This document shows positions 16,761 through 40,732 of a DNA stretch of 64,000 nucleotides, piece by piece. The notes below the pieces were generated by a model. The model did no database searches, was not told the DNA's origin, and saw nothing but the letters and a program-made list of their open reading frames with translations. The stretch comes from Chalciporus piperatus (Eukaryota; Basidiomycota; Agaricomycetes; Boletales; Boletaceae). The position numbers and the translations under genes were made by a program. Positions within the stretch are counted from its first letter, which is position 1. Each line of letters begins with the position of its first letter. The stretch spans positions 248,001-312,000 of the forward strand of contig JBBPTG010000010.1 in assembly GCA_038093975.1 (NCBI GenBank), in the 5' to 3' direction.

Positions 16761-16803
16761 CTGGGCGTCATCTCACATAGCGTAGTCCATTTGTACCCTG
16801 ATC

Positions 16804-16980
16804 CAGGGCCAGCTGATCACCAATTAGGCCGTTCTCTACTGGCCGGCTAACGATTGGCCGCTGGTGTATGATCACCTAGGTTAGGTATCAGCTAGTAATA
16901 GAATGTACACATAGAGTAGGGATCAGCCAATGTACCATTGTGCCCTGGCAGTGGGAATGGCCAACACACAGGTTTGTTGA
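16804..16980 (+). repeat. left terminal inverted repeat, outer unique part
   Basis: About 177 bp matching the reverse complement of 40545-40721, with scattered mismatches. Shared stretches include TGGCCGGCTAACGATTGGCC and AGTAATAGAATGTACAC. Confidence 0.88.
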
Positions 16981-16984
16981 TGTA

Positions 16985-17442
16985 TAGGAATGGGCCGATA
17001 TACCTAGTGTTACTAGGTAGGAATGGGCCGATGCAAAGTTTGTCCATTGGTAGGGATGGGCCGATGCATTGAGCCTCAATGTGTAGGAATGGGCCAATGG
17101 GTTGAGCCTCAATGCGTGGGAATGGGCCGTTCTACCTATTGTCACTAGGTAGGCATGGGCTGATGCATTGAGCCTCAATGCGTAGGAATGGGCCGATATC
17201 CCTATTGTCACTAGGTAGGAATGGGCCAATGGGTTGAGCCTCAATGCATAGGAATGGGCCGATATACCTATTGTCACTGGGTAGGCATGGGCCGATGCAA
17301 TCAGTGTCAATGTGTAGGAATGGGCCAATGGGTTGAGCCTCAATGCTTAGAAATGGGCCGATATTCCTATTGTCACTAGTTAGGGGTGGGCCGATGTAAA
17401 GTTAGTCCATCGGTAGGGATAAGCCACTGTGATCAGTGTCAA
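16985..17442 (-). repeat. 33-bp minisatellite, left array (~14 units)
   Basis: Tandem 33-bp units, each with the constant core GGAATGGGCCGAT (minus-strand view ATCGGCCCATTCC) and one of three variable halves. Unit length is a multiple of three, so the array produces a long artificial open frame (16888-17343, minus). Confidence 0.92.
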
Positions 17443-17458
17443 TATTATATGGCCTACA

Positions 17459-18817
17459 CTACATTACATTCCTCAGCCTCTCCAACATGTCCATCTGACG
17501 TAGCAAAGAAATCATATGGAATATGTGTTGCCTACGAGTGTAGGCCAGAAATTCCAAGTGTTCAAACATGATCCAAGATAGGGCCATCAGTGTGGCATCA
17601 TCATTTCTGGCCTGTTCTTCGGCGGCTGATCCCTCCGGCGGCTGGTGTTCTCTGCGCAGCCCTTGGGCTAATTGTCTGTTGGCCCAGTTGATTGCTTGCT
17701 TCACTGGAATGCGGCCGACGATGTTATCATCAATGTATTCCATGCTATGATCATGAAAACTACTCACAGTTATCGAATGTCCCTGTGAATGGTGTATTTC
17801 CTGTCGCCATGTCCTCAGGATTTCTACCTTCAAGTTGCCAGTCATGGGCTGCAATTCAATGAATTCTTCTGCCCTCATAGGATGCCACGAGGTACTTACG
17901 CAGGTCCAGCTCGTTCAGAAGTCTATTTTCGTTTTCCCTCTGATCATTCGACGACATGATAGCTGGGATGTCAGCTGATGTAATATCCTGCTCATCAGCC
18001 TCGGCTGGATCACGGCCTGACAAGGTAAGAAAATGTGTCATGAAAGCCGCGTTGATAATCAATGAGTTCTGGGCCATTTCGGCCCACATCCTCTGGCCCC
18101 TGGTTTGATACATTGCCCCTGATTCGGCTGACCTCTGTTGAAACCATTCGGCCACCCTTGCTGCGTTGGCACGGACTGTCCTGATATCCTCCTCGGAGCC
18201 ATTATCCAAAAGGATTCGAACGGTTCTCTCGGCCGATACAATGTGATTCCACAAAGGCATTCTGGGGACCTCCAAAAACCAGCTCAACAGAAAGCCATCT
18301 CTGGGGCCGTCTGCTGGCAAATCTTGCAGCGCATGTTCTCTGATACGACCAAAGGTCTCTGAAATGGATTCATTGATCTTGGCTGTTCAGGCGATCAGGC
18401 CAACTTGCCAAAGAACATCCATTGAAGCTCTTACCAGCAGCCAATGAATCCTGTTGCCTCAAAGGTGGCATGCGGAATGTGAACTCTGTTCTTGGCATTC
18501 CTGCAGCCGTGCTATCTTCTGTCGAGGGAATGTCATCTGAATCCCTTCCAACATTTTCCTTGACATACCTGAAAAAGAATCACCACCTTCACTGTCAGAG
18601 ATATTGGCTATGATTGGTTGTAAATCCCTCGGAGAATCTGCAGACATCCTGGTGTCTGCGCCGGCCGATGATGATTCACTTGAAGTTGCCATTCTCTCGT
18701 CTTCGCTGGATTCCAGCTCTGTGTCATTGTCAAATCCTAAGTCACTCAGGGGTCAGTGTTCCTAAGATGATTTTCGGCTGACAACTTACCTGCGAATCTT
18801 ACTTGCTTTGGTGCCAT
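17459..18817 (-). CDS. KDZ cargo gene, unknown protein
   Basis: Function not recognised. The first exon 18817-18790 (MAPKQVRFAG) joins in phase to an exon starting at 18736 that is acidic and Ser-rich (ELESSEDER). Later coding blocks are at about 18320-17925 and 17871-17459, the last joined through a GTAAGT donor in the codon after DL. The central part is helical and Trp/Arg-rich (PLWNHIVSAERTVRIL, RVAEWFQQRSAES); the C-terminal part contains WRQEIHHSQGHS and ALSWIMFEHLEFLAYTRRQ. No domain is known to me. It lies just inside the left inverted end and reads towards it. Total length is about 350-400 aa depending on one unsettled junction at 18350-18560. Confidence 0.5.
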
Positions 18818-18990
18818 GTGTATGTTGCAAAATAGTCAAGGACAGACCAGGGGAGATAGAACCCATCGGCTGAGCCTAATCTGATCAATCAGATCAACAG
18901 CACCCGAGACTTCCAGTTTCCCATGTCACCTGCTCCCTATGAGAATTCAAGTACATTTCCAGCTCCGCTCACCCAACTTGAACCACAAGA

Positions 18991-21954
18991 TGTAGCTACT
19001 TATTTGGGATGCCGACGGCGTAGCCCATGTGAATATTGTAGGGATTGCGATTGGCGAGCCAACATCGGCCCATATGGATGCTCGGCAAATTGACTGATGG
19101 GCCGAAATGGGTGGTCGGTCACTGACCCATGGGCCCATTGGTTGTGTATGAGAGTTGTAATACAAGTGCCAGTGATTGGATAGTGTTTTTTAGCCTTCGG
19201 TATTTTGCTATGATGTCTCGGCGTGTCGCTATTTCGCTATTTGATATCTTGGCATGTCGCTATTCGCTGTTTGATGTCTCAGCATGTTGCTATTCGCTAT
19301 TTTGATGTCTCAGTATATATGTCTCAGTATTTTGCTATTGTTGTCATCACTGAGCAGAATCAGTGATATAGTCAACAGATCCTTGGCATTCCTCAGCATT
19401 AATTATGCCGAAGGTTACTACCACTGAAATTCCATTGCCAAAGTCATTGCTGTACTATTTTAGAGCATGTGTAGAGTATTTAGGCAAACAAGTACAATGA
19501 GCAAAATGCATCGCCGAGCAAAATCAGCGATGTTGCCAGCATATCCTCGGCATCCCTCTGTATTAATGTCGCCAGAGGTTGTTACTGAAATTCCATTGCC
19601 AGAGTCCTTTTTATGTTTTGGAGTGTATTTAGAGGATTTGGACATACAAGTACAATAAGTGAAAGATGTCGCCGGTGTACCCTTGGCGTCCCTCGGCATT
19701 AATATCGCCGGTGGTTGTCACTGAAATTCTATTGCCAGAGTCATTTTGATGTTTTAGAGCATGTTGAGAGTATTTGGACATCCAAGTACAATAAGCAAAA
19801 TTCATCGCCGAGAAAAATCAGTGACATTGCTGGCATACCCTCGGCATCCCTTAGCATTAATTTCGCCGGTGGTTGTCACTGAAATTCTATTTCCAGAGTC
19901 ATTTTTACGTTTTGGAGAGTGTTGAGAGTATTTGGACATCCAAGTACAATGAGCAAAATTCATCGCCGAGCAAAATCGGCGACATCGCCGGCATACCCTC
20001 GACGTCCCTCGGCATTAATTTCGCCGGCGGTTGTCACTGAAATTCCATTGCCAAAGTCATTTCTGTATTTTAGAGCATGTGTAGAGTATGTAGGCAAACA
20101 AGTACAATGAGCACAATGCATTGCCGAGCAAAATCAGCGATGTCGTCGGCATACCCTCGGCGTCCCTTGGCATTAATTTTGCCGGCGGTTGTCACTGAAA
20201 TTCTCTCGCCAGAGTCTTTTTAATGTTTTAGAGCATGTTTAGAGTATTTGATCATACAAGTACAATAAGCAAAATTCATCGCTGAGAAAAATCAGCGACA
20301 TCGCCGGCATACCCTCGGCATCCCTTAGCATTAATTTCGCCGGTGGTTGTCACTGAAATTCTATTTCCAGAGTGATTAGCAGAGAATGTACAGTATTTAG
20401 GTGATTAGAGTATACAACTTGAGCTTGAAGGCCTACAAGTGAAAATCATCACGGGGGAAAATTGGCAACCTGGGCGGCGGTGGAAACCTTCGGTGTCATT
20501 GATGGCTTGGCATGCCGATGTTATGTCGCCAATGGCGCCAATGAGTTTCAATTGTAGGCCTTGTAGTACACTCTAATCACCTGAACACTCTATATCGACC
20601 AATAATTACTCTGGTGTGCGGGTTTCAGTGGTAGTTTCCAGCATGATTGATGGCTTGGCATGCCAAGGGTATGCCGGCGATGTCGCTGATTTTTCTCGGC
20701 GATGAATTTTGCTTATTGTACTTGTATGATCAAATACTCTAAACATGCTCTAAAACATTGAAATGACTCTGGCGATAGAATTTCAGTGACAACCGCCGGC
20801 GAAATTAATGCCGAGGGACGTCGAGGGTATGCCGGCGATGTCGCCGATTTTGCTCGGCGATGAATTTCGCTCATTGTACTTGGATGTCCAAATACTCTCA
20901 ACACTCTCCAAAACGTAAAAATGACTCTGGAAATAGAATTTCAGTGACAACCACCGGCGAAATTAATGCTAAGGGATGCCGAGGGTATGCCAGCAATGTC
21001 ACTGATTTTTCTCGGCGATGAATTTTGCTTATTGTACTTGGATGTCCAAATACTCTCAACATGCTCTAAAACATCAAAATGACTCTGGCAATAGAATTTC
21101 AGTGACAACCACCGGCGATATTAATGCCGAGGGACGCCAAGGGTACACCGGCGACATCTTTCACTTATTGTACTTGTATGTCCAAATCCTCTAAATACAC
21201 TCCAAAACATAAAAAGGACTCTGGCAATGGAATTTCAGTAACAACCTCTGGCGACATTAATACAGAGGGATGCCGAGGATATGCTGGCAACATCGCTGAT
21301 TTTGCTCGGCGATGCATTTTGCTCATTGTACTTGTTTGCCTAAATACTCTACACATGCTCTAAAATAGTACAGCAATGACTTTGGCAATGGAATTTCAGT
21401 GGTAGTAACCTTCGGCATAATTAATGCTGAGGAATGCCAAGGATCTGTTGACTATATCACTGATTCTGCTCAGTGATGACAACAATAGCAAAATACTGAG
21501 ACATATATACTGAGACATCAAAATAGCGAATAGCAACATGCTGAGACATCAAACAGCGAATAGCAACATGCTGAGACATCAAACAGCGAATAGCAACATG
21601 CCAAGACATCAAATAGCGAAATAGCGACACGCCGAGAGATCCAACAGTGAATAGCAACATGCCGAGACATCAAATAGCGAAATAGTGACACGCCAAGACA
21701 TCAAATAGCGAAATAGCGACATGCCGAGACATCAGATAGCAAAATCCCGAAGGCTAAAAAACACCATAATCACTGGCACTTGTATTACAGCTCTCATACA
21801 CAACCAATGGGCCCATGAGTTAGTGACTGACCACCCATTTCGGCCCATCAATCAATTTGCCGAGCACCCATATGGGCCGATGTTGGCTCGCCGGTCGCAA
21901 TCCCTACAATATTCACATGGGCTGCGCCGTCGGCATCCCAAATAAGTAGCTACA
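18991..21954. mobile_element. fold-back element built of ~158-bp tandem repeats
   Basis: A 2.96-kb near-palindrome. The ends are TGTAGCTACTTATTTGGG and its reverse complement. Arms of about 1.45 kb (18991 to ~20440 and ~20545 to 21954) are inverted copies, with a loop of about 100 bp. Each arm is a tandem array with a period of 157-159 bp; CATTAAT markers sit at 19697, 19854, 20013, 20171 and 20329. If a TA target duplication is assumed, the element is 18995-21950. It has no transposase and lies between two cargo genes, so it is a later non-autonomous insertion or an intrinsic repeat block of the KDZ element. Confidence 0.85.
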
Positions 21955-22100
21955 TGGGGTGCTTGAACAAACACATTACGTCACTTTCTATCGCTTTTAT
22001 TCTCGGCCGTCACTCATCCACAACCGTTTAACACTTGATTTCATCTCGCCTCTCTAACATCGTGCTCTTCACCTCCTCTCTACTCGCCATCCATCACAAC

Positions 22101-24467
22101 ATGATGTCTGCTCAGAAAGCCAACACCTCTGCTCAAGCTCTCACAGAGTTCCTCAAGATCACCATTGAGGCCATCATTCAAAGTGGCGAAGGCTGAGGGA
22201 GCCGCCTTTCAAGCTCGGAGTTGGAGGCTCGCACCCAAGACTGGAAGAGGAGATTGGATTCGATGAGGGCGGCATTGGTGCGTCCAGACTACTCCCTCAT
22301 ACCCTACCCTATGCTCATCTTTCTCACTCCCCACAGCATCATTTTCGCCCGATGGCTGAGGCTGCCACCATCATCCCTCCGATCGTCATTGCTGCAGACA
22401 TTCGGATCCCCAGCTGCACCAACGTCAACAGTTGGCCGGTATGGGAGTCCATCCTCCATCCTGGTGACTCCATCCAGTTCCACCATTGGTACCGGCCATC
22501 TGCGGCCACTGACTCGACATCGCCTCCCCCTGCCACTGCCGAGTTGCCCACTGCCACCCTGCCTTCTACGGCTCCTCGCATCACCTCGCCGCCCCCAGCT
22601 CGTCAAGGAAAGGGTAAACAGAGGGCGGTTGCAGTCAGGTCAGATGAGGCCGAGGAGCCAGAAGATCACCCAATAGAGCAGCCGGTCCCCTCAAAATCCT
22701 CAAAGTCCTCGAGGCCTCGCCCGAAACAGACCAACGTGTCAGCACCATCGGGCCCATCACTGCCCTCCCTCCCTTCGATCATCGTGAGACTCAACGCCCA
22801 CCACCGCAAGCACCCAAGCCGGCTCGTCTCCCACTCCCAACCCCAAAGACACCGTCTCGCCCTCGCCGCCACCTCCCCATGATGCAAACCAAGGCTCAAC
22901 AGGAATGGAACAAGGCCGAACGTGCCAAAAACGCTCAACCCGGCCCGTCCCGTTCCTCCCCTGCCTTGGCTGCTGCCGCCTCAGGCAGTGGCTCCCTTCT
23001 ACCCCCTCCGCCAGAACACTCTCCATGTGACCGGTGTGTCACCATGGGTCAGGAATGCATCCCACATCCCCCTGGAGCGAGCCGGAACGCCTGCATTCCC
23101 TGTTTTCAGGGAAAGCAGAAGTGTTCCCTCACAACGGCCCATCCAAGACGTGCGGCTTCAGCCCCTCGGATGGATTTGCCTGCCACCCCAGGCCCCTCCA
23201 CCAGGCCGAAGAGCACTCGCCAAACAAGGGTGGCAACAGGCAAGGGGACAGGCAAGCAGAGAGCGACGGCTCCTGAGGACGACGACTCCGACGACCCATT
23301 GGCCATTGAGCAGACCAAGTGGCTGGAAGACAAGGGGCAGGCCGGCCCGAGCACAACCAAGAAGAGAACAAGGGCTCAGTCGGCATCAGAGGAGCCGAAG
23401 GCGAAGAGGGTGAAACAAAGTGAGTTCATAGGTCATTCACATCTCTATTTGACATTAACATGGTCTACCAGCCCCAGTGGTCGAGGTCCTGACCTTCCGC
23501 CAGGTCATCTCGAGGGTCGTCAGAGAGCAAGGACACCTTCCAGGTCACGGTGTCTTGGCGGTCGCTCGTCCATCAAGCGAGTCGACTGACTATGCCGAGT
23601 GGAGGGATTACGCTCTGAGGCTCGAAGGTGCCATCCATCCTTCGGCCGCTCGGTTCGACCAAATGGAGGCTCGATTCTCCAAGCTGGAGTCTGGGCTCTC
23701 TGTGGTGTCCCAGCAGGTCAGTGGGATGTCGAGGGTATTGGAAACCGTCAGGCAAGTACAAGCCGTGGATCATCATCCATCACTGGCCGCCTCGTTTGTC
23801 TGGCATCCTCGCCCATCTCCCTCTGCCTCTCTCCCTCTTCGCTCCCCCTCGGCTTCGGCTCCCCCACGATCCGCCTTGTCCCGCTCGCCCTCAGTGCCTG
23901 CACCCCTCCCGGCGCCCGAGATCATTGCTGCGGCCAGCACGGTTACCTTGGAGGCCGACCCGACTGTGGACTCAAGGCCAGTCATTGCATCAAGTGACCA
24001 AGGGACAGTCGCACCGCCGGCTGACACCCACACTGAGTCTGACACATTCAGAATGGAAGTCCAACAATGTACTAGACAATTGTTCTTCTTTTTTACTCAA
24101 CAATTGGTCTAGCAAGTACTCTTATCAGACGTTGTACTAGATATTTTTATCAATACTATATCATATGTAATATTTGGGGATATCAAATGGCACATAAGGT
24201 GCCAAAGTATACCCTATAGCACAAAAGGCCCCCTTATAGCACAAAAAGCCCCCTTGTGCACCATAGCAGCACAAATGGCCTATTATGGCATAGGGGTTTT
24301 TTCCTGATGCATTGGTACAGCCATTCAGGCTTTGTTTTAATACCCCTCCCAGCCGTCCAGTCCAGCCACTGATTCAGATGACAGTCCATTGGGCGAAGAT
24401 GCTGATACTACTGACAAAGTTCCCTTAGGGGATGCTCTATCAGAGCCGATGGACACTGAGGAGTGAG
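22101..24467 (+). CDS. KDZ cargo: Zn(II)2Cys6-type DNA-binding protein
   Basis: Multi-exon gene with one perfect fungal zinc-cluster motif at 23026-23124: C-X2-C-X6-C-X11-C-X2-C-X6-C (CDRC...C...C..C...C). Upstream is a Pro/Ser-rich region with PVWESILHPGD. An intron at about 22783-22847 (GTGAGA donor) joins it to the MMQTKAQQEWN exon. Downstream is an acidic stretch, then an exon from about 23472 with a likely coiled coil (RFDQMEARFSKLESGLSVVSQ), and a final acidic exon ending at 24467. About 280 bp at 24068-24345 interrupts the last coding block and looks like an intron or a small insertion. The exact start and the 22190-22350 splicing are unsettled. A self-regulatory or DNA-targeting role for the transposon is inference. 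Confidence 0.6.
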
Positions 24468-24589
24468 GGCAGGGCCGATGCATATCAATGTTTATCTTGT
24501 ACTTTATATACATCACAATAGAGTGTTTTCTGAGCAGTCTATTCAAAACGCATACTTCAGCAGTAAAGTCCTAAAGAAAGAAACCTATA

Positions 24590-27338
24590 TTAGGGTCTCT
24601 TTTTGGTAGGTGTTACTATACCATCGTCCTTGCAAGCTGGAGTCTTCCTTGGTCTACCTGACCTGCGAGCCGATGGCTCAGGGACTTTATGGAATGTTTC
24701 ATCGGCCACACCCTGGATCAAATCATCATTTGTCAGTGAAGCTCAATATACACATAAGTGCACTGACCTTGTCAGCCTTGGTCTCGGCCAGCTGCCTTGA
24801 ATCCTTCTCTTTGTGAACTCTCTTAGTGAGCCTGTCATCGGCCGATGAATCGGCGGCTGAACCATCCTCTTCAGTCAGGGGACATTTGTTCTCTCTAAGG
24901 CTCTTTGAACTTTTCTCCTTGATCCTTGGCTTAGGAGGCTGGGGCTTAGCCTTAGACTTAGGCTCCAATGGCTTAGGCTGTAGCTTCGGCTGTGGCTTCG
25001 GCTTCGGCTGGGACTCTGAGTTAGACTTTGTGAGCAAAGATAAAGTTGTTATGCATTACCTTGTCAGTCCCCTGAGACGTTTTCTCCTTGGATGCTGACT
25101 GTTCCTTGTAAACCTTGGACAGTTCACCTTGTTTGGTTCTGACATCATGCCAGCTGGAAGGGGCTGGGGTCTTTCGGGATGCAGCACGATGTTTATCGAA
25201 AGCTGGCAAATCTGTCGGCCGATTAGCATGCTCTCATCAATGCCAATGCTGCATGGACCCACCGTAGTCCCCCATTTCATTGTCTTCATTCTCCTCGGCC
25301 GATGACACATCAGACATGATGGGTATCTCATGTGCTTTCCCTTTCCTTTTTCCCTTGGAAGTCTGCACAGAGATAAATTCATTGTCAGTGAGTTCTGGCA
25401 AGGGAGCTCTCTGACGACTCTGGAGCCGTTTGCTCTTGTCTAGTCGTTTGCTCTGGTCATGTGTTACCTGGAATCCCCCTTTCACCCCTCCCACCTGACT
25501 CCAAGCAAATATCGGCACCTTCCTGGCCTGCTGTCTGCTCTGCCAGAAACTAAGCAAGCTTTCGACTTGCTTTTGCCTCATCTTCGATGGATCAATCATC
25601 ACAAACCCTTTTGGCAGATAGTCCGCATGGATGAAGGCGGCTTGTCGTTTAGCCACCTCGTCAAATGGGACCTTGGCCTTGTGGCTACCTGACTCTAGTC
25701 CTGTTGACCTGCTCAGCCGAGATCTATTCAACATCGGCTGACTCACTGTAATGAGCAGTCAAGAAGGCTTGCACCACATCCTTAATCTGGTCAAGCGCTA
25801 AGCTCCTAAACGACCCGAAGTGCATCGAACATACCCTAGCATTCATACAAGCAACTCAACGCCTAGAGAAGCACTTCGGAGACCTAACACCACCCAAACC
25901 ACAAAGACCACAACCATGACCCCACCACGCACGACAATTTACCCCGCGCTCAGGACCCATTAAGAGGTCACTTTCTTTTAGCCCCACGCAGGCCCCGCTC
26001 AATTTACGAGCAGTTAACATAGCATTACCCACCACATACAACACGACTACAGTAGCACGACATCACCGTATGTACTGTCTAACAAAGGGCCTTAAGCCCT
26101 GTAGGACAATAAACGAGGATTCAAAAAAAAAAAAAAAAAAAAAATCTGGTCAAGGTTCATCGGCTTGATATCAGGAATGATTGGAGACTCATTTGCTGTC
26201 CAATCAGGCTTGAGCAACTTTATCATCGCCTCAACGCTATTCTTCTTCTTCTTCCTACTAATGACCGGCAAGCCTTCCAAAGACCCTTCATCTTTGCTCC
26301 CTTCTTCGGCTGGCCTGTCGTTCACCCCAAAGGCTGTGTTGGCCCATTTGTTCCATTTAGGGTGAATGCTGTCCCAATGTTCAAACGGCGGGCCATTGTC
26401 CAACTCACCGTTGTAATCGAAGCTGAATTGTATTGTTAGCTTGAGATCGACAGCGGCCGATGAAGCTAACTGACTGAGAAATAAGGACATTGTCGTCTTT
26501 GTCCTTCCATGCACTCATGACCATAATCCGCGCTCCACAGTTCTTGCACATATCCTTAGCAAACGCAAGGACCATGTTTGGAGCTTTCTTCGACGCATTG
26601 CTGATCACATAGCCATAGAGGTCAATACCAGCCGATCAATCAGACAGTCAGAGGACCTACTCAGCTTGGACTTCGGCCGATGGCTTGTCTGCATTCCATT
26701 CTTCGACCTCAGCCTCTAGGTGCTCCCTGTCGTCCTTGGAAAGTGATTCCAGGAATTTAGTGATGCCAGCCTGCCAATGCTTGATAATCCCCTGGGACCC
26801 CCGCTTCTCCTGAAACTCGTGTTCGATGATTGCCATCACCTCTTCTTTGTTCCTTCGGGATACGATTTTGCGGGCCGTCCAGCGCTGACTATACTTTGGC
26901 TTGTCCTCGGCTCGTTTGCGAGACTTGCTGTACAACCAGAATGTGTATTGCTAGTGTATTATTTCAATCAGCATCTAAGGGCTTAAAACACTGGATTCAC
27001 TCACATTTTTGCGGTATTTGAAAGCCTCAAGTCCAAGACCCTTGACAGACTCGAGCTCAGCTAACCTGCCCCACATATTCTTCATGATCGACACCTTCTT
27101 GGCCTTCTCTGAATTTTTCCAAGGCATGATGAACTCCCCCATAATAGCCAACTCTTCCTCTGAAAATTCCGTCGGCCACTTCTTCGGCTGGTTCGGCCCA
27201 TCTTCTGCTTGCTCAACATCCTCCTCGTTAGGGTTCTCTTCCTCAGATTCATCCTCTGCCAGAGAATCTATATTACTGTCACCTGGGTGGTCTATATCAC
27301 CCGGTTCCTCAGAGTCATGATCACTGGAGGGAAGAACC
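24590..27338 (-). pseudogene. KDZ cargo gene with AT-hook tail, split by retroposons
   Basis: Conserved basidiomycete protein type often seen near mobile DNA; function unknown. Coding blocks in order: about 27338-27005 (acidic lead, KKWPTEFSEEELAIM, FIMPWKNSEKAKKV), 26935-26665 (RWTARKIVSRRNKEEVM, ITKFLESLSKDDREHLEAE), about 26615-26480 (MCKNCGARIMVMSAWKD), about 26470-26143, the continuation 25795-25748 (IKDVVQAFLTAHYS), about 25740-25237, then KP-repeat and charged exons. The tail at about 24680-24590 has an AT-hook core RRSGRPRKTP. A poly(A) retroposon (25796-26142) breaks one exon and a second one (27339 onwards) cuts off the 5' part; a possible start exon (MVMKSATQTT) lies at about 28806. 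Broken as it stands. Confidence 0.62.
25796..26142 (+). mobile_element. poly(A)-tailed retroposon copy with 12-bp target duplication
   Basis: A 347-bp insert ending in about 20 A residues, flanked on both sides by aatctggtcaag (25784-25795 and 26143-26154; the first As are ambiguous with the tail). This is the hallmark of target-primed reverse transcription, so a 5'-truncated LINE or a SINE. The 3' end reads GGACAATAAACGAGGATTC before the tail. It sits in the sense-opposite orientation inside a coding exon. Confidence 0.9.
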
Positions 27339-28765: not shown

Positions 28766-29245
28766 TAGGAACGTTAGGCCGTCGTTTGGGTGGCAGACTT
28801 CATGACCATCTTTCTGTTGCTTCAGGTGCAAGAGAAACAAATCCTGGTGTCAGTGCAGTCAGGAACCTTGGTTGCTGGTCATTGGCTCCTTCAGTGTGAT
28901 AGGTCCCAATGATGTCGGCTCTGGGTCAATTTATCAGACATCTAAAATAGGCCCGAGGACGTCGGGTGTGAAGCTGTCAATCAGACACTTGTCACCTTTC
29001 AGCCATGTCTGCATCTTACATCGTCCTGATGACGTCGGATAAGAAGCTGTCAAGATATCGGCTAATGCATCCGATGTCAAGCGGCTGTTGTTTGGAGGAA
29101 GGATCTGATGGCTCTGACGTACAAATGCTTCCGCGAGTGATCAAAGGCTCCGGCCCGTTCATCTTGTCACCTATGCCCCTGGGTGGCCTGAAATATGCTA
29201 ACCTGCCAATGAGGCAAACATTATCACCAAGTATCCGATTGTACA
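28766..29245. promoter_or_regulatory. divergent promoter of KDZ transposase and AT-hook cargo gene
   Basis: About 480 bp without coding. Two copies of a GACGTCGG...GAAGCTGTCAA element lie at 28958-28980 and 29031-29052, 73 bp apart; the second reads TGACGTCGG, a CRE/ATF-like core. Two related gatgtcgg/gatgtcaag motifs are nearby. Likely control sites of the transposase promoter, by position only. Confidence 0.45.
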
Positions 29246-32200
29246 ATGGTCAAGCCCAAGATCGAGAAGGCCACACCATGGACCCCAGTGCAAGAGGTCA
29301 AGTTTCTCAAGAAGGGATCAAAGATCAAGATGGTCAAGCTCACCCCGCCAAGCCACAAGAGCAAAAAACACAAGGCTGCTATCCCTCAATCATCACCTCA
29401 GATGCCGAGACTGGAAACGCCACTGGATCGTGGCCTCACACCCAGCACTGCTGATCGGATGTATGACGCAGCTGATGGAGAGTATGTTCTGCCTTCTTTG
29501 AAACTACCTAAACCCAAGGTATGCTCGACTGTGTGGGTGCCCAGATTTAATGACTGAGGGTATTTGAATAAGACCCAAAACGATTATTTGAGGGAGTCCC
29601 TGGACATGAAAGATGAATACCTCGCTGCTTGGCTGGATATGGAGGCGCCTTCTGAGAGAATTTGCAAGATCTGTCAGGGAGACGGAGTGTATAAGTGCCA
29701 GGACTGTTTTATGCAACCGGTCTTCTGCACAGGTTGCTGCAGAAAGCAACACGAACAACACCCTCTTCATAGGGTGTTACAATGGACCGGAGATTGTTTT
29801 GAGGAATCCACACTCCATCGGGTATGTCGTTTGAAGCACTGACAAATCGGTCAATGACAGACTATTCACACAGACAGGGTTGGAACTCCATCTGGGACAC
29901 TTAGGAAGTCCTTGTCCCCATACTGCCCCTCTACCTCCAGTCACCTTGGAGGACGAGGCTTGGGAGGATGATGATGTTGCCCATCGGCCGGCTCATTTAC
30001 AGCCTCCGGCCGAGCCAGGCTTTCTCCTGGTCATAGATATATCTGGGGTACACTATGTGAACATGAGATTTTGCAACTGTCCAGAGGCCGATGCAGCTCA
30101 TAAACAGCTCTTTCTGGCTCAGCTTTTACCTTCCACCATCAAAGAGCCGAGCACTGTATTTACCTTTCGGCTGCTCGACGACTTCATCCGAGACAATCTG
30201 GAATGTGGCACCTCTGCTTCGAACTACTTTAGCAAGATTCGGCGGATAACATCCAATGCATTCCCACATTTGGTGCCTGTGGGTGGCTTTATTGCTCAGC
30301 CGAAGTTCAGCCGAAGCCGAGCTAATGGTGATAACAGAACCGATATCGAGAGCTCATCCGTGCCGCTCGGCTGTGGAGGCTGTTAAAGCTGCTCAAGTGG
30401 AATGGATATGGGCATACCAAGGGGTCTCCTGGATTGGGTGCTCTGGCTTTGTTCTGTCCGGCATGCCCTCAGCCAGGGATCAACATGGACATTAATTGTG
30501 TTGGGGGAGTGGCTCCGTGAGTGTATTAGCAACCTTGACCGATGCACTAGCATCTCATGATCCTAAAGGTGGATGATCACCCGAACCATCATTATGGACG
30601 GCAATTTCAAGGCGGAGCATTTGCCTGACAAGAGGCCTGATGACCAAGTATGGCTGATGCCTGGGACAGGGTTTATGGTAGAAAGCCAGAGATACAAGGA
30701 GTACCTTGAAGTCACGAATCATCCTGTCGAGGTATTGACATTTTGGCTTTCAAAGACATTGCTGACTGCGTCGGGCAGAAGTCGAACTGTAACAACCATC
30801 GAGCAGTCAATCAGGCCAATGCCAACCGACAAAAGTTAGAGGCCACAGGAATCGGGGGGTGCGCGTGTGCCAGACATGGATGCTTCATTCCCCATGCAGT
30901 GGTGGACTTCCAGAAGGGTGAGAGGTAACAAGTTCGGCCGCCGGCCGAGAAACGGATGCATTGACCACAATGACAGGCAGGTCAATATGGATTATGCATT
31001 GGCACATGCGTTGGAATACAACATGGCTGGCATTCAAAGGGTGATCCTCTTCTATGACATCAATTGCCAATACATGAAGCCGCTGAGGCTGCGGCTCAAG
31101 GGCAACGAATATGTCAAAATACCATTGGCCGTGGAGTTGGTGCCAGGGATAGGCATATGGCATGTGCATGAATGTTTCCAGAGATACACACCCAACTTTA
31201 TCCGAGGGGCAGGGCGGGTGGATGGGGAGATAATCGAAACCTTATGGGCAAACTTGAACATTGTGTCCCCATCCACAAGGGGAATGAGCAGCCCTCACAG
31301 ACGGGAATTGCTGGACTTCCAAATGGCCGACTTCAACTTTGTCAAAATGATAAGGATGGATGGGTGACCTGCATTCTATAATGACAGATCGCCTAACGCC
31401 TCAGATTTGTAGCTCAGAGTCTCAAGAGAAAACACAAGCAAGCAGTCAAAGGGCTTGTCGAAGCCGAGAAAGCTTTCCAAGAGTTGGATGATGGCATTCC
31501 AGAGGCGGAAAGAAATGAGTGGCAAGCTTTGGAAGATCAGGCTCACAGAAAGAGAGTGAAGGACCTGACGGCCATGGATGTCTACGAGGTGCATTTGAAA
31601 AAAGGTTTGTGGCCAGTCCTACTGAGCCGAAAAGAGTGTATCAAATTGATTGGAATCCCAGCACCATCGGCCAAGGCAATCGAGCTTCAGCTGCTACAGA
31701 GTAGTCAAGGTGGCAGAAATCAGGCAGTGTTATTGATCGCACACGGTATGCAGCTACAGAAGATGAAACTCGGTTGGGCATCAGAGAGCCGCAGGCTTCC
31801 GATTTGGCCGACTGAACAACAGCAATTGGTGATCGCCCGAAAGAAGGAAAGGTTGGCTGGGCTTATCCATGCTTTTATTACAGAGACAGCCGCATTCTGG
31901 GGGGATGTGGGAGAGTCAAGCAATCTGGAAAACGATTTGGAGCAAGAAGCGTCCAATGCGGCCGATGACGAACTCTGGGAGGATAAAGCTCAGAGAGATA
32001 GAGCATTGGCTGACGTTCCAGATGTTCCTTTGCCATTGACTCTTGGCTGGAAGTTTTGCACTGCGCATGGGTTGCAGGATGTGGCAGACAAGGAGAAACA
32101 GTTGCAGATAGGCCAAGCAAACGATGCCCTCCATGAAATTTGTCTGGGTCTGGCAGACAAGGCAGTACCGAGGTCAGGCATGCTGGGAGTTACACCATGA

Positions 32201-32588
32201 CAACACGGGCATGGTCAAGGGTGACCATGGTCAAGGAAACAGTGAAAAAGAATGTGGCCATTTATCGAGCAGCCAGGAAAGCATTACAAGACTTGGACAC
32301 TAGCCAGGAAGACTTGGAGAAGTATCGGCCGATCAGCAAGAAAGACTTGAAGGTGTCAATGGCCGTGAGCAATCTGAATGCTCGTGGACATCGAGATGAT
32401 ATCCTCGCGTGGTTCTGGACCATGGATATACCGAGGGACGTGGTAATGAGTAACTGGATGTCCGAATGTGAGAGTGCTCCTCTGCTTCTTGGCTCGGCTG
32501 AATCACTATGCTAGTCTATCGGGTGCATTGGCTCAGAGCAAAGGCCCAAAGAGATAGATGGAAAGAAGAAACTGAGCTTTTGGTTTAA
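29246..32588 (+). CDS. KDZ transposase with CxC2 cysteine cluster
   Basis: Transposase of the giant element. Exons: 29246-29518, 29573-29821, 29874-30278, 30338-30516, 30569-30731, 30779-30924, 30977-31363, 31405-32467, 32515-32588, all phases closing except as noted. Zinc-binding CxC2 cluster at residues ~122-165 (CKIC, CQDC, FCTGCCRKQH). KDZ core includes DNLECGTSASNYFSKIRR, ALALFCPACPQPG, the MDGNFKAEHL segment, then catalytic FYDINCQY (Asp near 499) and GAGRVDGEIIE (Asp/Glu near 554-556), with STRGMSSPHRRE and the C-terminal VHWLRAKAQRDRW. Defects: a one-base frame change near 32172 (before VRHAGS) and an in-frame TAA at 32586-32588, after which the family-like reading WTANFFAHKAGDW continues. 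Probably inactive or only recently damaged. Confidence 0.88.
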
Positions 32589-34261
32589 GAAAAGGTGTGG
32601 ACCGCGAACTTCTTTGCTCATAAGGCAGGTGATTGGAGCGAAAAGGGAACAATGCGAAAGAACAGGGAAGGGTGGGAGCCGGGGCATATGCAGACAGACA
32701 GAAAAGGATGTATGCCAGGCTCAGAGATCATTGTCAGGATTAATTCAAGTATGGTGGACAAGATTTTCTACGTCATCTACATTGACCCAATCTACATCGA
32801 AGAGGTTCATGGCCTGTTGAACGTTCTCCCTCATGTAGTATGCCAAGCAAACCCGACTTCCTTGAACCACAGGAACTCCATGCCGGATGATCTGCCCAGA
32901 AAATGCTACCACGGTGCCTGGAGGGTAATGAAGGGTAATGCCGAGCGTAGGCAGCTCCATTGTTAAGCCAGGATCATAGTCACCAAAGGATGCCAGCAGA
33001 TCTAACCCCTGTGACATAGATCCCGAGTCTCGATGCAAAGGAGTGGCTCGATTGACCATGACCGACATGGCATTGAAGACCGAGCCCCACTGCCTCATGA
33101 TGGCAGTCATCTCCGTGCGGCCGCTCGTTAAGGCCCATGTGGCCAACCTTCCCTGAGCCACCCTTGCAGATTGGTAAGCCCTGGGATGCATAATACTGTA
33201 GGCGGCCAAGAGGATTGCGTTTGGGACCAACATGTCTTCTAACCAAGCCGCAAGGCTCGGGTCTGCTAGGTTGACAGATGGCGCTGGACTTGAGTTACTG
33301 GCCTGCAAGAGATCAGGTCATTGAATTGAATAAATCAAGGTGAATTGGACATACATTATGAGCTTGGGGAAACCAGCCAGGCGAGATGTTCAATGACCCC
33401 TGGAATACAGCTTCCTGGGAAAAGAGGGCATTGGCTGTCCGCCAACCATGACGCGATGACAGCGGGGTTGTGATGGTGGATTGGAGAAGCGGTTGGATTG
33501 CAGGCAGAGTGTTATGCACCCATGACTAGGCAGCCGAGTGAGGCTTGAAAAGACACATTCAGCAGACTAGGCCTACCTGAAATTTGGAGGTGAGTGGCGA
33601 TGGGAGATACCAAAGTAGGATGTGGCCAGCTTGATCTGTGACAATGCAAGGTGAATCTATGAAAGTGGTCGGAAGGGAGGGAAGCCGCTCGGAAATCCTT
33701 TGTTCATGATCTGGATTTATGCCAGACACGATTAGTGATGTGCAGGGCCCGGGTCGGGCTCAAAGCCCCAGGTCGGGTCGGGCTTAGAAGGGCTCGGGCC
33801 CAGCTAAATCGTGAGCCCGAGCCCTTGTTGACGGCCCAGGTCAGGCCCAGGTCGGGCTCGGGCTTGAGCCGCGGCTTGTCCAACAACTCACGCGATCAAC
33901 AACAATGGCTGAGGAAGACAGTCAGGTGACACACGAATGGTCAACAATAACATACCTGAGAGTTACTCGATGAATCAAGTGGTCACGTCGATGTGGAATC
34001 TGGATGGTGGGTTGGGGCTTGAAGTCATCAGGAAAAACCTCTGCTGGATAATTTGTGCAATTATCCTAAAAATTTGTAAATTTGTCCAAATTTCAAGAAT
34101 TTCATATATTTCCAAGAATTCCTGATATTTGTGGCAAATACTTGACCTTTCCAGCATGTATGTTATATGAAATTTCTTAAATTTCATGAAAATCATGGTT
34201 ATTAGTGATATTTTATGAAAATTCACAGTAACCATGGTAATTCATATGAACTGAGTAGAGA

Positions 34262-34700
34262 GGGTGCAATTAGAATGTAAACTCAAAGTGGGAAAAAGTG
34301 TACTGAAAGTGTAGGAAATTGTGGCTAGCTTGAGTGTAGCAAAGTGTACAAAAGAGCATAGTAAATGTATAGTTACAAGTGTGGGAAAGTGTAGCTAGAT
34401 TGAGTGTAGCTTAAGTGTAAAAAAAGTGTAGTAAATGTGTAGTTACAAGTGTGGGAAAGTGTAGCTGGATTGAGTGTACCAAAAGTGTACTAAAACTGTA
34501 ATGAAAGTGAAGGAAAGTATATTAGGGAGTGTAGCTAGAATGTACCAAAAAAGCGTACTAAAACTGTGCTTAAAAGTGTAGGAAAGTGTACTAAGATTGG
34601 GTGTAGCTAAAGTGTACAAAAATGCGTACAGAATGTGTAGTTAAAAGTGTAGGAAAGTGTGATTTGAAAGTGGACAAAAAGTGTACATAAGTGTAGCCCT
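34262..34700. repeat. gtgtag-rich degenerate tandem repeats
   Basis: Irregular repeats of aagtgtag/agtgtac words; the clearest pair has a 70-bp period (gtaaatgt at 34361 and 34431, each followed by the same 45 bp or so). Internal to the hAT-like element. Confidence 0.7.
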
Positions 34701-34830
34701 ATTTCCCTAATGGTTGGACTTGTCAAAAATCCGCGCGAGCAGGTCACGTGACCGTGTTGAACTTGCCGCGTCGGCATTTTCGAGTCCTCACCACTACAAC
34801 TACTTACTACTACCCAACAAGCATGAAAAC

Positions 34831-35465
34831 ACAGCCGGCGCGGGCTCAACAGCCCCGCCGGCTTCGACAGGTGAGTATTTTTTAACTATCCTCGACAGGC
34901 TCAGTGACTTCGAACACAGCCGCATGTTCTCTTTGCCCCACTCGCTCACCTCAAACACAGCCGCTCGGGCTGCTTGCCCACCACCATCCCCCACCTATCC
35001 AATTTGACACCAAAGCAAGGCCGGCGAGGGCTCAACAGCCCCGCCGGCATCACCAGGTGAGTTCTCACTCACCACCACCACATCTACCCACCTTGTACCC
35101 AGCTGCTCGCGCTCGACACGAAAACGCGAAAATGTGTGGGCGCTATTGCCCCACCACCACACCCCACCTCAACCTCAACACGACGACACGGCCGGCGTGG
35201 GCTCAACAGCCCCGCCGGCTTCACAAAGTGAGTGTTCGTTCGCCAACCAATCCAACCCAGCTACTTACCTCGTACACAGCAGGTCGGGCTGTTTGCCCCA
35301 TCACCACCACCTCCGAGTCCCGTCTCACCCAGCCTCAACTCGCACACAGTCGCTTGGGCACGCCGCCACCTCCTGCCACCTCTAACACCATTTTAAACAT
35401 TTCCACAAGCGTGAACGGCCGGCGTGGGCTCACCAGCCCCGCCGGCATCACCAGGTAAGTCTCGC
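34831..35465. repeat. four hairpin-plus-splice-donor modules
   Basis: Copies begin near 34833, 35022, 35190 and 35414. Each is an imperfect inverted repeat with GCCGGCG and GCCCCGCCGGC arms around CTCAACA or CTCACCA. Each is followed within about 10 bp by a GTGAGT or GTAAGT consensus 5' splice site. Spacing is 170-225 bp. Confidence 0.75.
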
Positions 35466-37295
35466 TCACCCACCACCATATCCACTCACCACAGATCCCT
35501 ATCACAGATCCCCACTGTGTTTTCGCAAGCCGGTAAGCTTGTTTGAGTTCGCCAGCATCTCATGACACCTCCTGCACCTCACAACACCTTTTCACGAGCT
35601 TCACTGGTTTGCCTGTGCATTCCTTGGGACATGCTGGGTCTGTCCACCATCATAAGTAAGTTCATTCCCCCACCATCTCTGCTTCCTCTCTCATCACCAT
35701 GCATAGCTGTACCTTGCTTGACATGATCACCACCCTACCATGCTCCCTGGGTCTATCCAGCTCCATAGTAGTAGTTATATGTATAGTACATGTTGTAGTC
35801 AGTTGTCAATATACTGGTTTTCAACCAATATGTTTGATTTGTGTGAAATGGAAGTGAAAGAATAGCTGTAATAGGATGGAGAATAGGCTGAGATTATGAG
35901 CAAATTGTAGGTATTATCAACAAATGTCTGCATATATCTGTTCAATTACCATGCATTTTGGTAGATAATTTTATGGAAATATAAGGAAATTTTCACAAAA
36001 CCAGTGAAAAACAAGGGGGGGCTAGTTATTTTCAGAGAATTGTGTGAAATACTGAAATATGACCAATACCAGATATTATTGGATATTTCATGGAAATATC
36101 AGCTATTATCAGCTATTATATATAATTATCTGGGAGAGGTTTTTCCTGATGAAATGCGTGACCGCGGGGACAAAAACGAGCCGAGTTCACGATGCAGCAG
36201 CATAGGCGCACGAACAGAGTCGTGTGGCCATACAGCTGCATTGAGGACTCGACAAGTCGAGCAGGAGCATTGGAAAGCAGTTGGAGATGAAGAAGACAAC
36301 ACATCAAATGTGTCAAATCAAAACCAAGTGGTGACAAAGTTGAGGAGTCGAGCGAGACAGGCCAGGGCTCAGGCCTAAGGCCCAAGGCCCACCAATAATG
36401 AAGCCTGAGCCCTGAGCCCAATGAAGCCCTAGAGAGGGCCGGGCCAGGCCCGGGCTTCAAAAGCCAGGCCTGGGTCGGGCTCAGGGCTTGAGCCCGAGCC
36501 TTGCACATCACTAGACACGATATATCCCAGAACCGATGCAAGTTGTTCTGCTTGAATAGCCAGGCGGACTGCGGCCGAAAATCAGCTGCCTGAATGGCCT
36601 TTCATGGAAAATAGCTTGCCTGGACGGCTGAAGGCTGAAACCATCGCAACCACCATGTGTTCGGCCTCAATGACAGCATTAACAGGAATTTGAACATCTG
36701 GCAAGACAGGTTTGGTGGTTTGATTGCGGAAGCGCAGCACCTCCTCCCAAAAACGTGCCTGGACATAGGTTGCCAACAGATCATTGAGATAGAGGGCGAA
36801 GTTGGTATCAGTTAATTCCTCAGAGGTAACATGAGGTGGGTCCATAGTGAATCAAGGGAGTCGTGGTGTAACCCTCGACAGATAGGTAGAAATGGGAGCA
36901 TCTGCGGGTCCTTCGGGGCCGTCGGGTCGGTTCCTCGGGTCCAATGGGCTATCAATATCCGGCCGACACTTTGGGAATACATCCATGACAGGCATGGGAA
37001 ACCCATGTGCTTGAACTCTGGAGCAAAGATAGGCTGGCCGAAAGTCAGCCTTCTCCATCAAACATCTGATGCTCACTAAAGTTGAAACATACACTTTGTT
37101 GGTGTACTTCGGCTGCAGATTACAGGCAGCCATTGGAGAGGCAGGACAATGGCCTCCTGCAGCAATGGTCTCCCTGAGGGAGGAAGTGGTGAGTATGGAT
37201 TTGCACACTTCCTGCAGGAGTGTTAACAGCCAAACAATAGGCTGTAGTGAATCGGTTGATGGCATACAAATCAATCGCTCACAACGATCTGCCAC

Positions 37296-38237
37296 ACATC
37301 CCTCTGTTGGATCGGGTCATCTTGCTGATTATTGTGAGCGATCTAGAGGATGGCCAGCTCCACCAGGAAATTTCAATGACACCTGGGAGCCAATTGCATA
37401 TAATGCAACAAACATCGCTGAGGTGCGGCCAAGCATTGTCGGCCATGGATTTGCAGCACAAGTGGTGGTTAGAAGGCAGCAACGGCCTGCCTGGTGACTA
37501 TCGTCGGCAGGAGTTCAGGGACTTCATCGGGCCGGCAGAGGCTTTCTTTGGGGTGAGTTACCAGAAGTATCTTGGGTTAGCACTATGGGTACTCAAAATC
37601 TGGAATAGGGACCGCTCGCCCTTGAATGCTGATAATAGCTGGGCTTCAGGGCGACATCGACGAGATGCAATAGAGCTTGCATGGGCAATTCGTGGAGGCA
37701 GCCATGACTTTATGAGAAATGAATAGGAGCTTGGTGCTGACATGGAACAGGGCGAGAGGGTTGATAATGCTCACCCAATGGATTCGTGAGCAGGAGGGTA
37801 GAACCCATGCAGAAGAGTCTGGGGATAGGTAGAATATTTTAAATATGCCAGCCAAAGGACTTGTACTCCAGCCGAAACTCGTATCACAGTGAGCAAATGC
37901 AGCCAGCCCTGACAAACACTCAACATTGAGTAAACCTAATATTACAGTACATTGTAGTCGAAATGCACGATGAGAATGAAACATAATCATGAGCATGTAT
38001 CTAAGAAGCATAACAAAGTATTCTGCAAAGATTGTGAGCCGATGAAGAGGAGAATTAACTAGCTGACTCACAATGGTTCCTCGGCCGCTTTCTCAAGCTG
38101 GTGGGCAGGGTCTGTGTAGGGGTGGACATACTACATGGCAGACCCTCAGCAAGGCACCGATGACAAGGCCGAGCCAATGAGCCTCCATTGCACAAGAGCT
38201 CGTCGGCTGCCTCACACTGTTCGCATAGCTCTCCACC
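37296..38237. other. unresolved coding-like region inside KDZ element
   Basis: Open frames occur on both strands. On the minus strand they could be upstream exons of the TET/JBP gene (or a separate cargo gene). On the plus strand 37247-37726 reads FRDFIGPAEAFFGVSYQ and LALWVLKIWNRDRSP, which also looks protein-like. I cannot decide between them from sequence alone. Confidence 0.35.
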
Positions 38238-38663
38238 TCAAACCCCCACCCCCAATACAGCCTCAAGGCCCCTAGGCGGCAGCCATAGGTTCGATGGTCC
38301 AGCGAGAGGGAGATCAACAGGTGACCGAAGAATCGGCCGAGGGGTTGATGGGCCCATGGGAGCAGGGGGGGCCGGTGGGTTGGCAGCAGAGGCCAACCCT
38401 GAGACGCGTGACGCAACTATGTCCAGTGAGTCGCGGATGGCGTCCAAGACAGGTGGGGAAAATGGGGAGGCACTGGGAGACATAATGCCTGCAGTCAGCT
38501 AGAGGATGATCAGTCGAATGATAGACGATCTGAAGAACAGCTTTGTACCGCTGCCTGCAAAACCATGTGTGCCCAGGTGCGACGATGGGCGAGATCATCG
38601 ATCTCCCTGAGCTGTGGGCGAGCAAGATATTCGAGAGCATTTCGGCTGCTAGAGGGGTCCATG
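38238..38663 (-). CDS. 5' exons of a minus-strand cargo gene, possibly the TET/JBP gene
   Basis: Two blocks. The first starts at an ATG at about 38663 (MDPSSSRNALEYLARPQLRE, then RRTWAHMVLQAAVQS). The second, 38483-38238, reads PPVLDAIRDSLDIVASRVSG followed by a Pro-rich stretch. Both have the codon texture of real exons. They lie upstream of, and on the same strand as, the TET/JBP exons, so they may be its N-terminus, but no junction could be proven. Confidence 0.42.
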
Positions 38664-38895
38664 GCGATGTTAGATATAGATTCAGAGGATTGGAAGGCGA
38701 TCTGAATCATCAGTCGGCCGTCAGGATTGGCCAATGGGGCTGGCTGGGCGAGGGTGAGTCTAGACCTCGGGAATCAATTAGGGTCTTTGATTGATTGATC
38801 AGAGCTTCTTAGTGATTCCGGAGTATGCCTAGTGGCTTGCTTTGGATCAGCCCATGCCTACTCAAGGACAAGGTTTGCATGACCCTGTTCCTACA

Positions 38896-40385
38896 TATTT
38901 ACAATCAATGCATCGGCCCATCCCTACCTAGTGACACTGATTGCATCGGCCCATTCCTGCCTAGTGACAATAGGTATATCGGCCCATTCCTACGCATTGA
39001 GGCTCAACCCATTGGCCCATTCCTACACATTGACACTGATTGCATCGGCCCATTCCTACCTAGTGACAATAAGTATATTGGCCCATCCCTACACATTGAC
39101 ACTGATTGAATCGGCCCATTCCTGCCTAGTGAAAAGAGGTATATTGGCCCATTCCTATGCATTGAGGCTCAATGCATCGGCCCATCCCTACGTAGTGACA
39201 CTGATTGCATCGGCCCATCCCTACCTAGTGACAATAGGTATATCGGCCCATTCCTACGCATTGAGGCTCAATGCATGGGCCCATCCCTACACATTGACAC
39301 TGATTGCATGGGCCCATCCCTACACATTGACACTGATTGCATCGGCCCATCCCTACACATTGACACTGATTGCATCGGCCCATCCCTACACATTGACGCA
39401 GATTGCATCGGCCCATCCCTACCTAGTGACAATAGGTGTATCGGCCCATCCCTACACATTGAGGCTCAACCCATTGGCCCATTCCTACACATTGACACTG
39501 ATTGCATCGGCCCATTCCTACCTAGTGACACTAGGAATATCGGCCCATTCCTATCTAGTGACAATAGGTATATCGGCCCATCCCTACGCATTGAGGCTCA
39601 ACCAATTGGCCCATTCCTACGCATTGAGGCTCAATGCATCGGCCCATCCCTACACATTGACACTGATTGCATCGGCCGATCCGTACCTAGTGACAATAGG
39701 TATATCGGCCCATTCCTACCTAGTGACAATAGGTATATCGGCCCATTCCTACGCATTGAGGCTCAATGCATCGGCCCATCCCTACACATTGACACTGATT
39801 GCATCGGCCCATCCCTACACATTGACGCAGATTACATCGGCCCATCCCTATGCATTGAGGCTCAACCCATTGGCCCATTCCTACGCATTGAGGCTCAACC
39901 CATTGGCCCATTCCTACACATCGACGCTGATTGCATCGGCCCATCCCTACCTAGTGACAATAGGTATATCGGCCCATCCCTACGCATTGAGGCTCAACCC
40001 ATTGGCCCATCCCTACACATCGACACTGATTGCATCGGCCCATCCCTACCTAGTGACAATAGGTATATCGGCCCATCCCTACCTAGTGACAATAGGTATA
40101 TCGGCCCATTCCTACGCATTGAGGCTCAACCCATCGGCCCATCCCTACACATCGAGGCTCAATGCATCGGCCCATCCCTACACATTGACACTGATTGCAT
40201 CGGCCCATTCCTACGCATTGAGGCTCAATGCATCGGCCCATTCCTACACATTGACACTGATTGCATAGGCCCATCCCTACACATTGACACTGATTGCAAC
40301 GGCCCATTCCTACACATTGAGGCTCAACCCATCGGCCCATCCCTACCCATTGACACTCAATCTATCGGGCCATGCCTGCTGTAGG
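38896..40385 (+). repeat. 33-bp minisatellite, right array (~45 units)
   Basis: Tandem 33-bp units with constant core ATCGGCCCATYCCTA and three alternating variable halves: ACATTGACACTGATTGC, CCTAGTGACAATAGGTAT and CATTGAGGCTCAACCCAT types. Inverted relative to the left array. Two of the variable halves are themselves short palindromes. The 3n unit length creates long false open frames on both strands. Confidence 0.96.
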
Positions 40386-40544
40386 AGACATGATTCAGTG
40401 GCCAATGCCCACCCCTAAACATTTCCTGCATCGGCCGCTCCCTACACATGGAGGGTTTACACATCGGCCTATCCCTATTCTCTATGGGCCGAACCCTGAT
40501 GCAGGCAGGACTGGGTAATTAGCACCAGTCGGCCAGGTCCTACC

Positions 40545-40721
40545 TCAGGGAACCTTTGTGTTGGCCATTCCCACTGCCAGGGCACAATGGTACATTGGCT
40601 GATCCCTACTCTACGTGTACATTCTATTACTAGCCGATCCCTAACCTAGGTGACCATACACCAGCGGCCAATCGTTAGCCGGCCAGTAGAGCACGGCCTA
40701 ATTGGTGATCGGCTGGCCTTG
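40545..40721 (-). repeat. right terminal inverted repeat, outer unique part
   Basis: Reverse complement of 16804-16980 with scattered mismatches; ends GCTGGCCTTG. Confidence 0.88.
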
Positions 40722-40732
40722 CTGTACGGCCT

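Follow-up and report, generated by a model that had tools for sequence, protein, structure and literature searches.

KDZ transposons are common in mushrooms, with elements reported from Marasmius oreades (PMC8290104) and Pleurotus ostreatus (PMC7641404). In the parts of the literature cited here, the closest published systems are the TET+ Kyakuja of Agaricomycetes, which are described as complete elements with 7-bp target duplications, 5'-CA..TG-3' termini and no inverted repeats, and whose AG-type TET proteins carry HxD, an Asp at CcTET position 337 and a Gly or Ser at 331 (Kojima, 2025, PMC12730594). The Cryptococcus elements KDZ1-KDZ3 are given as about 9-11 kb long, with terminal inverted repeats of 139-241 bp, target duplications of 8 bp (KDZ1) or 4-8 bp (KDZ2 and KDZ3), and domains named KDZ and CxC1 (PMC12810828). 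The Starships of Ascomycota are also giant elements and are classed by a tyrosine recombinase, as far as the cited account describes them (PMC12134995). The present analysis concerns a 64,000-bp stretch of Chalciporus piperatus DNA (contig JBBPTG010000010.1, positions 248,001 to 312,000), referred to as the window, in which positions 16774-40750 carry a large, multi-gene KDZ element. The evidence makes it highly probable that this element represents a family of KDZ-group cut-and-paste DNA transposons that is closest to the published TET+ Kyakuja and has a five-gene core of about 16-17 kb, and that the window copy is a damaged composite. It is a new and large member, with well-defined ends, of a kind of transposon already known; the idea of a multi-gene unit is upheld for the family, but not for the window copy as a single insertion.

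The assignment to the KDZ group follows from gene 4 (28802-32514, plus strand, start uncertain), which encodes a KDZ transposase with a CxC2 cluster. Its Pfam matches to CxC2 (1.3e-23, 83.7 bits against a cut-off of 27) and KDZ (PF18758; 3.9e-22, 79.5 bits against 26.6) give the combination of a PF18758 domain with a CxC cluster by which the superfamily is recognized. The same CxC2-KDZ order is described for the intact elements of P. ostreatus (PMC7641404), and a KDZ transposase with a CxC cluster together with long inverted repeats is likewise a feature of KDZ1-KDZ3 as reported (PMC12810828). Gene 5 (32748-37303, minus strand, upstream limit uncertain) encodes a TET/JBP dioxygenase with its catalytic exon at about 32748-33273 and a Tet_JBP Pfam match of 1.8e-20, above the cut-off. 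In the PDB this exon is closest to 8jkk (1.5e-23) and CcTet of Coprinopsis cinerea (7vpn, E 1.6e-23; also 7w5p), to which the catalytic domain aligns over 162 residues. In the numbering of the 7vpn alignment it keeps H326, D328 and D337 and has a Ser at 331. The initial annotation had proposed a KDZ transposase and a TET/JBP dioxygenase enclosed by matching inverted ends, and both enzymes are borne out by these matches. The TET/JBP enzyme can probably erase DNA methylation. A KDZ transposase paired with an AG-type TET/JBP protein close to CcTET, including Asp 337 and Ser 331, is also the combination described for TET+ Kyakuja (PMC12730594). Unlike CcTet, the window gene is interrupted by an insertion. 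Several genes in one large element recall the Starships as they are described (PMC12134995), but the window has a KDZ transposase, and no tyrosine recombinase domain was found among the open reading frames and gene models scanned with Pfam, which do not cover every frame.

The ends of the element could be defined by comparison with other copies in the window's own genome (35.5 Mb in 484 contigs, labelled here C plus a number). The inverted match itself stood: 16807-16974 (plus strand) is 95.8% identical over 168 bp to the reverse complement of 40551-40718 (minus strand), with an E value of 3.6e-73. A 26-base core of this repeat has 114 matches in the genome at up to three mismatches, 59 forward and 55 reverse, and its reversed control has none; the first 100 of the 114 were listed, and 101 ends were read in all. 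When the flanks of these copies are aligned, similarity passes the borders first proposed, 16804 and 40721, which lie 23.9 kb apart, and then stops sharply at 16774 and 40750, about 32 bp further out. The outermost sequence is of two sorts. End A comprises 33 bp (CACATAGCG..., 16774-16806, plus strand) and end B 32 bp (GAGCCCATTCAGCTC... read inward, 40719-40750, minus strand). Typed by their terminal letters, 52 of the 101 ends are A, 47 are B and 2 are neither. The two are not inverted copies of each other, the score of their alignment being equalled by 71% of 2000 shuffles. Outside the point equivalent to 16774 the flanks of A ends are unrelated, except in pairs having the same flank. Both borders, supported by the flank alignments, are fixed by an empty site for an insertion on C454, and because end A begins with CA and end B with GA, the element termini are CA..TC.

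Directly inside the ends, the 168-bp repeats are followed by subterminal tandem arrays whose 33-bp unit is present in 12.5 copies in the left array (16985-17395, plus strand) and in 45 copies in the right one (38890-40377, minus strand). A 16-base motif of this unit has 60 matches in the whole window at up to two mismatches, compared to 0.10 expected, and all 60 fall within 16917-17396 and 38911-40608. The lack of inverted similarity in the outermost 32-33 bp agrees with the description of TET+ Kyakuja, but the 168-bp inverted repeat begins right inside. Compared by description only, the window element may add to the published Kyakuja this inner repeat, the 33-bp arrays and three genes (PMC12730594). 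From KDZ1-KDZ3, as reported, it differs in its longer core, its repeat lengths and the size of its target duplication (PMC12810828).

The size of the duplication was established from the flanks of the typed ends. Among 4851 end pairs, nine share an exact 7-mer, compared to 0.30 expected, and all nine join an A with a B end. Matches of 6 bp number zero (1.18 expected), and the single 8-bp match (0.07 expected) is a palindrome common to two A ends with the same flank. A duplication of exactly 7 bp is like that of TET+ Kyakuja and unlike the 8 bp given for Zisupton and Dileera in the same account (PMC12730594). After removal of a same-flank duplicate (C70/C193) and of C52/C427, which was rejected when only its C427 half turned up among 40 of 474 candidates scored, the nine matches represent seven distinct insertions. 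Six have their partner ends on different contigs (C454/C10, C120/C15, C310/C62, C228/C291, C26/C23 and C208/C427), and that of C193 lies on a single contig. Empty sites exist for four of the seven, namely C454/C10, whose site is present in three contigs (C378, C186 and C78), C193, C26/C23 and C208/C427; for the last three, the same 40 of 474 candidates were scored, and these were mostly copies of two repeated targets. Separately, copies of the C193 target adjoin, at about 120 bases, weak Tet_JBP matches below the cut-off in six contigs.

Because the interior is collinear in C137 and C310 and un-nested in C310, the genes between these ends are assigned to a single element with a length of about 16-17 kb. 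The order is gene 1, a six-cysteine gene, a gene with an AT-hook-like motif, the KDZ transposase and the TET/JBP oxygenase. The core consists of 16774-18983, 21962-24044, 24303-25795, 26144-27334, 28750-33732 and 36514-40750, or 16,197 bp by addition. On C137 its blocks follow one another from a left A end to a right B end over 32.3 kb, which includes insertions of its own; the flanking 7-mers of this copy are also mismatched. On C310 an un-nested run extends from the B border at 9904 to 25256 (15,353 bp), reaching the equivalent of window position 39399 in the far array, with its last kilobase having no match to the window. Block 36513-38840 has at least 44 matching pieces among 40 of 67 candidates scored. 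The initial annotation inferred that all the enclosed genes move as one unit, and for the family this is supported, since they form part of one repeated element with defined ends, 7-bp duplications and empty sites.

The three remaining genes are less readily classified. Gene 1 (17459-18744, minus strand) has three main predicted exons in a block present in C137 and C310, and it matches no Pfam family. Gene 2 (22101-23997, plus strand) encodes a six-cysteine cluster, C-x2-C-x6-C-x11-C-x2-C-x6-C, with a Zn2Cys6-like spacing. Its previous identification as a Zn(II)2Cys6 protein is consistent with this spacing but is not confirmed by Pfam, where it scores 13.6 bits against a cut-off of 21. Gene 3 (24337-27318, minus strand) encodes a long charged protein that was called an AT-hook protein. 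An AT-hook-like motif, GRPRK, does lie in a predicted exon of the window model, but no Pfam match exceeds the cut-off: the C137 model, which is cut before the motif, has none, and the window model with the motif has two below the cut-off, neither of which is believed. Part of the protein gave two PDB matches, the better with an E value of 0.02 and neither convincing.

Across the genome, 25 of 36 Tet_JBP matches are above the cut-off, and 17 of these 25 are inside this element family, 12 of them without a stop in the matched stretch. The KDZ domain has 75 matches when counted exon by exon, 16 of them inside family matches. Tet_JBP matches outside the family on C71, C132, C36 and C388 lie within 3 kb of KDZ matches, indicating that the pairing of KDZ and TET is not confined to this element. 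On C166 (6441-6857) a Tet_JBP match is abutted by an A end.

The window copy has been heavily modified. Five nested blocks, none of which occurs in the collinear copies on C137 and C310, account for 7,781 bp of the 24 kb. The first, at 18984-21961, is a palindromic element of 3 kb with a 7-bp duplication (CTTGAAC), CAC...GTG ends and long palindromic arms; CA..TG termini and 7-bp duplications are the pattern described for Kyakuja, and this element may be a non-autonomous relative. A short insertion with approximate borders occupies 24045-24302. Two retroposon-like insertions follow, one at 25796-26144 (plus strand) that ends in an A tail, is flanked by the 10-bp duplication TCTGGTCAAG and interrupts gene 3, and one at 27335-28749 (minus strand) whose left border has a run of T. 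The latter is absent at 16 places besides the window that join 26144-27334 directly to 28750, as read by hand from the match listings (C310, C137, C40 twice, C283, C366, C356, C258, C178, C346, C432, C332, C394, C336, C329 and C306). The fifth, at 33733-36513, has an 8-bp duplication, GACACGAT, and ends TAGTGATGTGCA, and is presumably hAT-like from its features; it is also absent in C409. Its insertion site lies in a predicted exon of gene 5 in the C137 copy. The window transposase lacks four residues of the stretch WHVHGHQAEC that are present in C137 and C310. Because the TET gene is cut at 33733 and the transposase lacks these residues, the window copy is probably dead. The internal tandem repeats of the hAT-like element recur in or near other copies of the big element on C155, C339, C166, C120, C295 and C217.

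In addition to these insertions, the two ends of the window copy do not belong together. The 7 bp before the left end, GTCATCT (16767-16773, plus strand), are unlike the 7 bp after the right end, GTCTCGT (40751-40757, plus strand). The latter is the right half of a target duplication whose left half adjoins an A end of contig C454; at the empty site, the C454 flank continues directly into the window right flank with a single GTCTCGT. On the left, a paralogue of the target on C77 (268 of 288 positions identical, 93%) continues past the insertion point, where its sequence does not significantly match the right flank of the window. A search for the missing partner of the left end, a B end followed by GTCATCT, found none at up to two mismatches, A-type partners not being pattern-searched. 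The left junction is probably sound, because C155 agrees with the window in the left flank (99%), in end A and in the interior blocks as far as window position 22751. Thereafter C155 diverges, and over the 23 kb that follow on the inner side (18700 to about 40800) it matches the window only in the repeats of the hAT-like element. The left and right ends of the window copy thus come from two different insertions, and movement of 16804-40721 in a single piece cannot be demonstrated. A genome search for further copies, an empty site and a target duplication, which the initial annotation had suggested, supported the family, but the joint movement of the genes is not supported for this copy, with its unlike flanks, a partner on C454, a left-target paralogue without the right flank and five nested insertions.

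The mismatch is likely due to an assembly error in which two copies were joined within the repeat. Contigs tend to break at these elements, a contig end being found within 6 kb on the inner side of 45 of 101 ends and on the outer side of 10, and partner ends fall on different contigs in six of the seven insertions. This explanation is less easily applied to the facing end pairs on C51 (4.6 kb), C202 (5.2 kb) and C375 (5.9 kb), which have the same ends and also lack matching 7-mers, and which are harder to blame on assembly.

These mismatched pairs leave room for an alternative, which we consider possible but not the favored explanation, namely a biological origin of the mismatch. Either recombination between copies or a transposition event that used the ends of two different elements would have joined unlike flanks and turned the gene block around, and the inverted arrays at both ends would be ready substrates. 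Consistent with this, the gene block is found in either orientation with respect to the A and B ends. Of 26 blocks from the TET side, 12 have an A end, 7 a B end, 1 an untyped end and 6 no end; of 21 blocks from the left side, 6 have a B end, 4 an A end and 11 no end within the limit. The blocks were hand-picked as reaching, or lying near, the outer side, from 44 rows of matches to 36513-38840 and from 128 rows of the left-side listing. The same data also fit two sub-lineages or misassembly, some ends are not independent (the same flank in C393/C46 and C233/C285; the same insertion in C10/C155), and the B-end partner with GTCATCT is missing at up to two mismatches.

That the 24-kb stretch is a single intact giant transposon, inserted here as a unit, is very improbable. 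The inverted ends, the gene content and the C137 copy, with the same order from A to B end, are what such an insertion would show, but the flanking 7-mers differ, the right end has its partner on C454 with three empty sites, the left-target paralogue runs on without a matching right flank, and the copy holds five nested insertions. A single insertion is accordingly rejected for the assembled copy, unless the contig C454 contains a misjoin of its own. Also very improbable is the view that the ends belong to short elements and the genes are merely enclosed between two of them, for although the same ends also bound shorter pairs (C193, C51, C202 and C375), and C202 and C375 contain inner sequence that is unlike the window, the genes in many contigs lie directly inside single ends, with an end within the limit in 20 of 26 TET-side and 10 of 21 left-side blocks.

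Several observations weigh against the interpretation of the family as a Kyakuja-like, five-gene element with the window copy as a composite. The right terminus is TC, not TG as described for TET+ Kyakuja (PMC12730594), with end B starting GA. No long copy has both ends and a matching duplication on one contig, and the full length is pieced together. Among nine facing end pairs on one contig, a single pair (C193, 3.9 kb) has a matching 7-mer, and four join two ends of the same type. Three of the seven insertions have no empty site among the 40 of 474 candidates scored, a result that is uninformative there, their own flanks being unlisted too. As to the genes, the exon models come from a simple script, and C310 has stops in both KDZ (two) and TET (one). 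Substitutions between the window and C137 at the first, second and third codon positions are 9/12/8 in KDZ, 3/2/3 in TET, 15/13/15 in gene 1, 17/29/21 in gene 2 and 7/5/9 in gene 3, and in the comparison with C310 they are 19/16/19 in KDZ and 3/4/6 in TET. Thus, no third-position excess that would indicate selection on the genes after amplification was seen in the comparisons of the window with C137 and C310. The present data also do not separate assembly from recombination as the cause of the mismatched ends. The codon and exon figures, like the CpG figures below, come from scripts that rely on plain global alignment and on a splice search written for this analysis, and exon ends may be off.

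The element is depleted in CpG, and the window flanks are not. The observed/expected ratio of this dinucleotide is 0.57 for the core of the element and 0.50 for its ends, compared to 1.00 and 0.98 in the window flanks. Of the nested blocks, the hAT-like element has a ratio of 0.62 and the 18984 block 0.92. Elsewhere, the ratio is 0.64 and 0.61 in two short end pairs, 1.04 and 1.01 in two insertions in C137, 1.05 in a Gypsy element in C120 and 1.01 in a gag-bearing stretch of C155, the Gypsy and gag identities being taken from domain matches. Between the window and C137, changes from CpG to TpG or CpA affect 146 of 578 positions, while GpC transitions affect 55 of 817 and CC transitions 79 of 883. 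Deamination of methylcytosine is expected to leave such a pattern. The contrast with the long terminal repeat (LTR) elements is suggestive only, since those elements may merely be younger.

Together, these features suggest a mechanism in which the transposase binds the 33-bp repeats, whose motif has its 60 matches in the two ends of the window copy, brings one A end together with one B end, and inserts the element with a stagger of 7 bp. The TET/JBP enzyme may oxidize methylcytosine on copies of the element and so allow them to be expressed, and the six-cysteine and AT-hook-like proteins might bind element DNA or help to target the TET activity. The window copy would then have received five later insertions, had its TET gene cut by the hAT-like element, and had the ends of two insertions joined by assembly or by recombination between copies. 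A broader joint reading, which is tentative and on balance doubtful, holds that recombination between the inverted arrays flips the gene block and reshuffles the A and B ends, continually creating chimeras and joins between chromosomes, and that methylation, or oxidation, has long been aimed at the TET-bearing family itself. The latter part is proposed because the TET-bearing family and the hAT-like insertion decay at CpG, whereas no such decay is seen in the LTR elements and large insertions that were checked.

With exact ends, duplications and empty sites defined for a TET-carrying KDZ element, the question of whether a transposon-borne TET protects its own element becomes testable, and copies whose TET gene is intact can be compared with copies whose TET gene is broken, within the same genome, for methylation, oxidized cytosine and CpG decay. 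The element further reveals three additional genes that accompany the KDZ/TET pair. Finally, it serves as a warning that an assembly can connect unrelated flanks through repeats of such size.

Some minor features were also noted. The elements on C202, C375 and C274 have the same ends and include 765 bp of the KDZ region (28750-29514, at about 97% identity); they also contain further inner sequence that is common to one another and absent from the window. On C70 (L013 3030-3710) a fragment of a Pif1-type helicase lies about 5 kb inside an A end. Outside the element, the window contains an inverted repeat (43706-44053 and 54304-54638) whose copies are 86% identical and about 10 kb apart, and a palindrome at 53796-53851.

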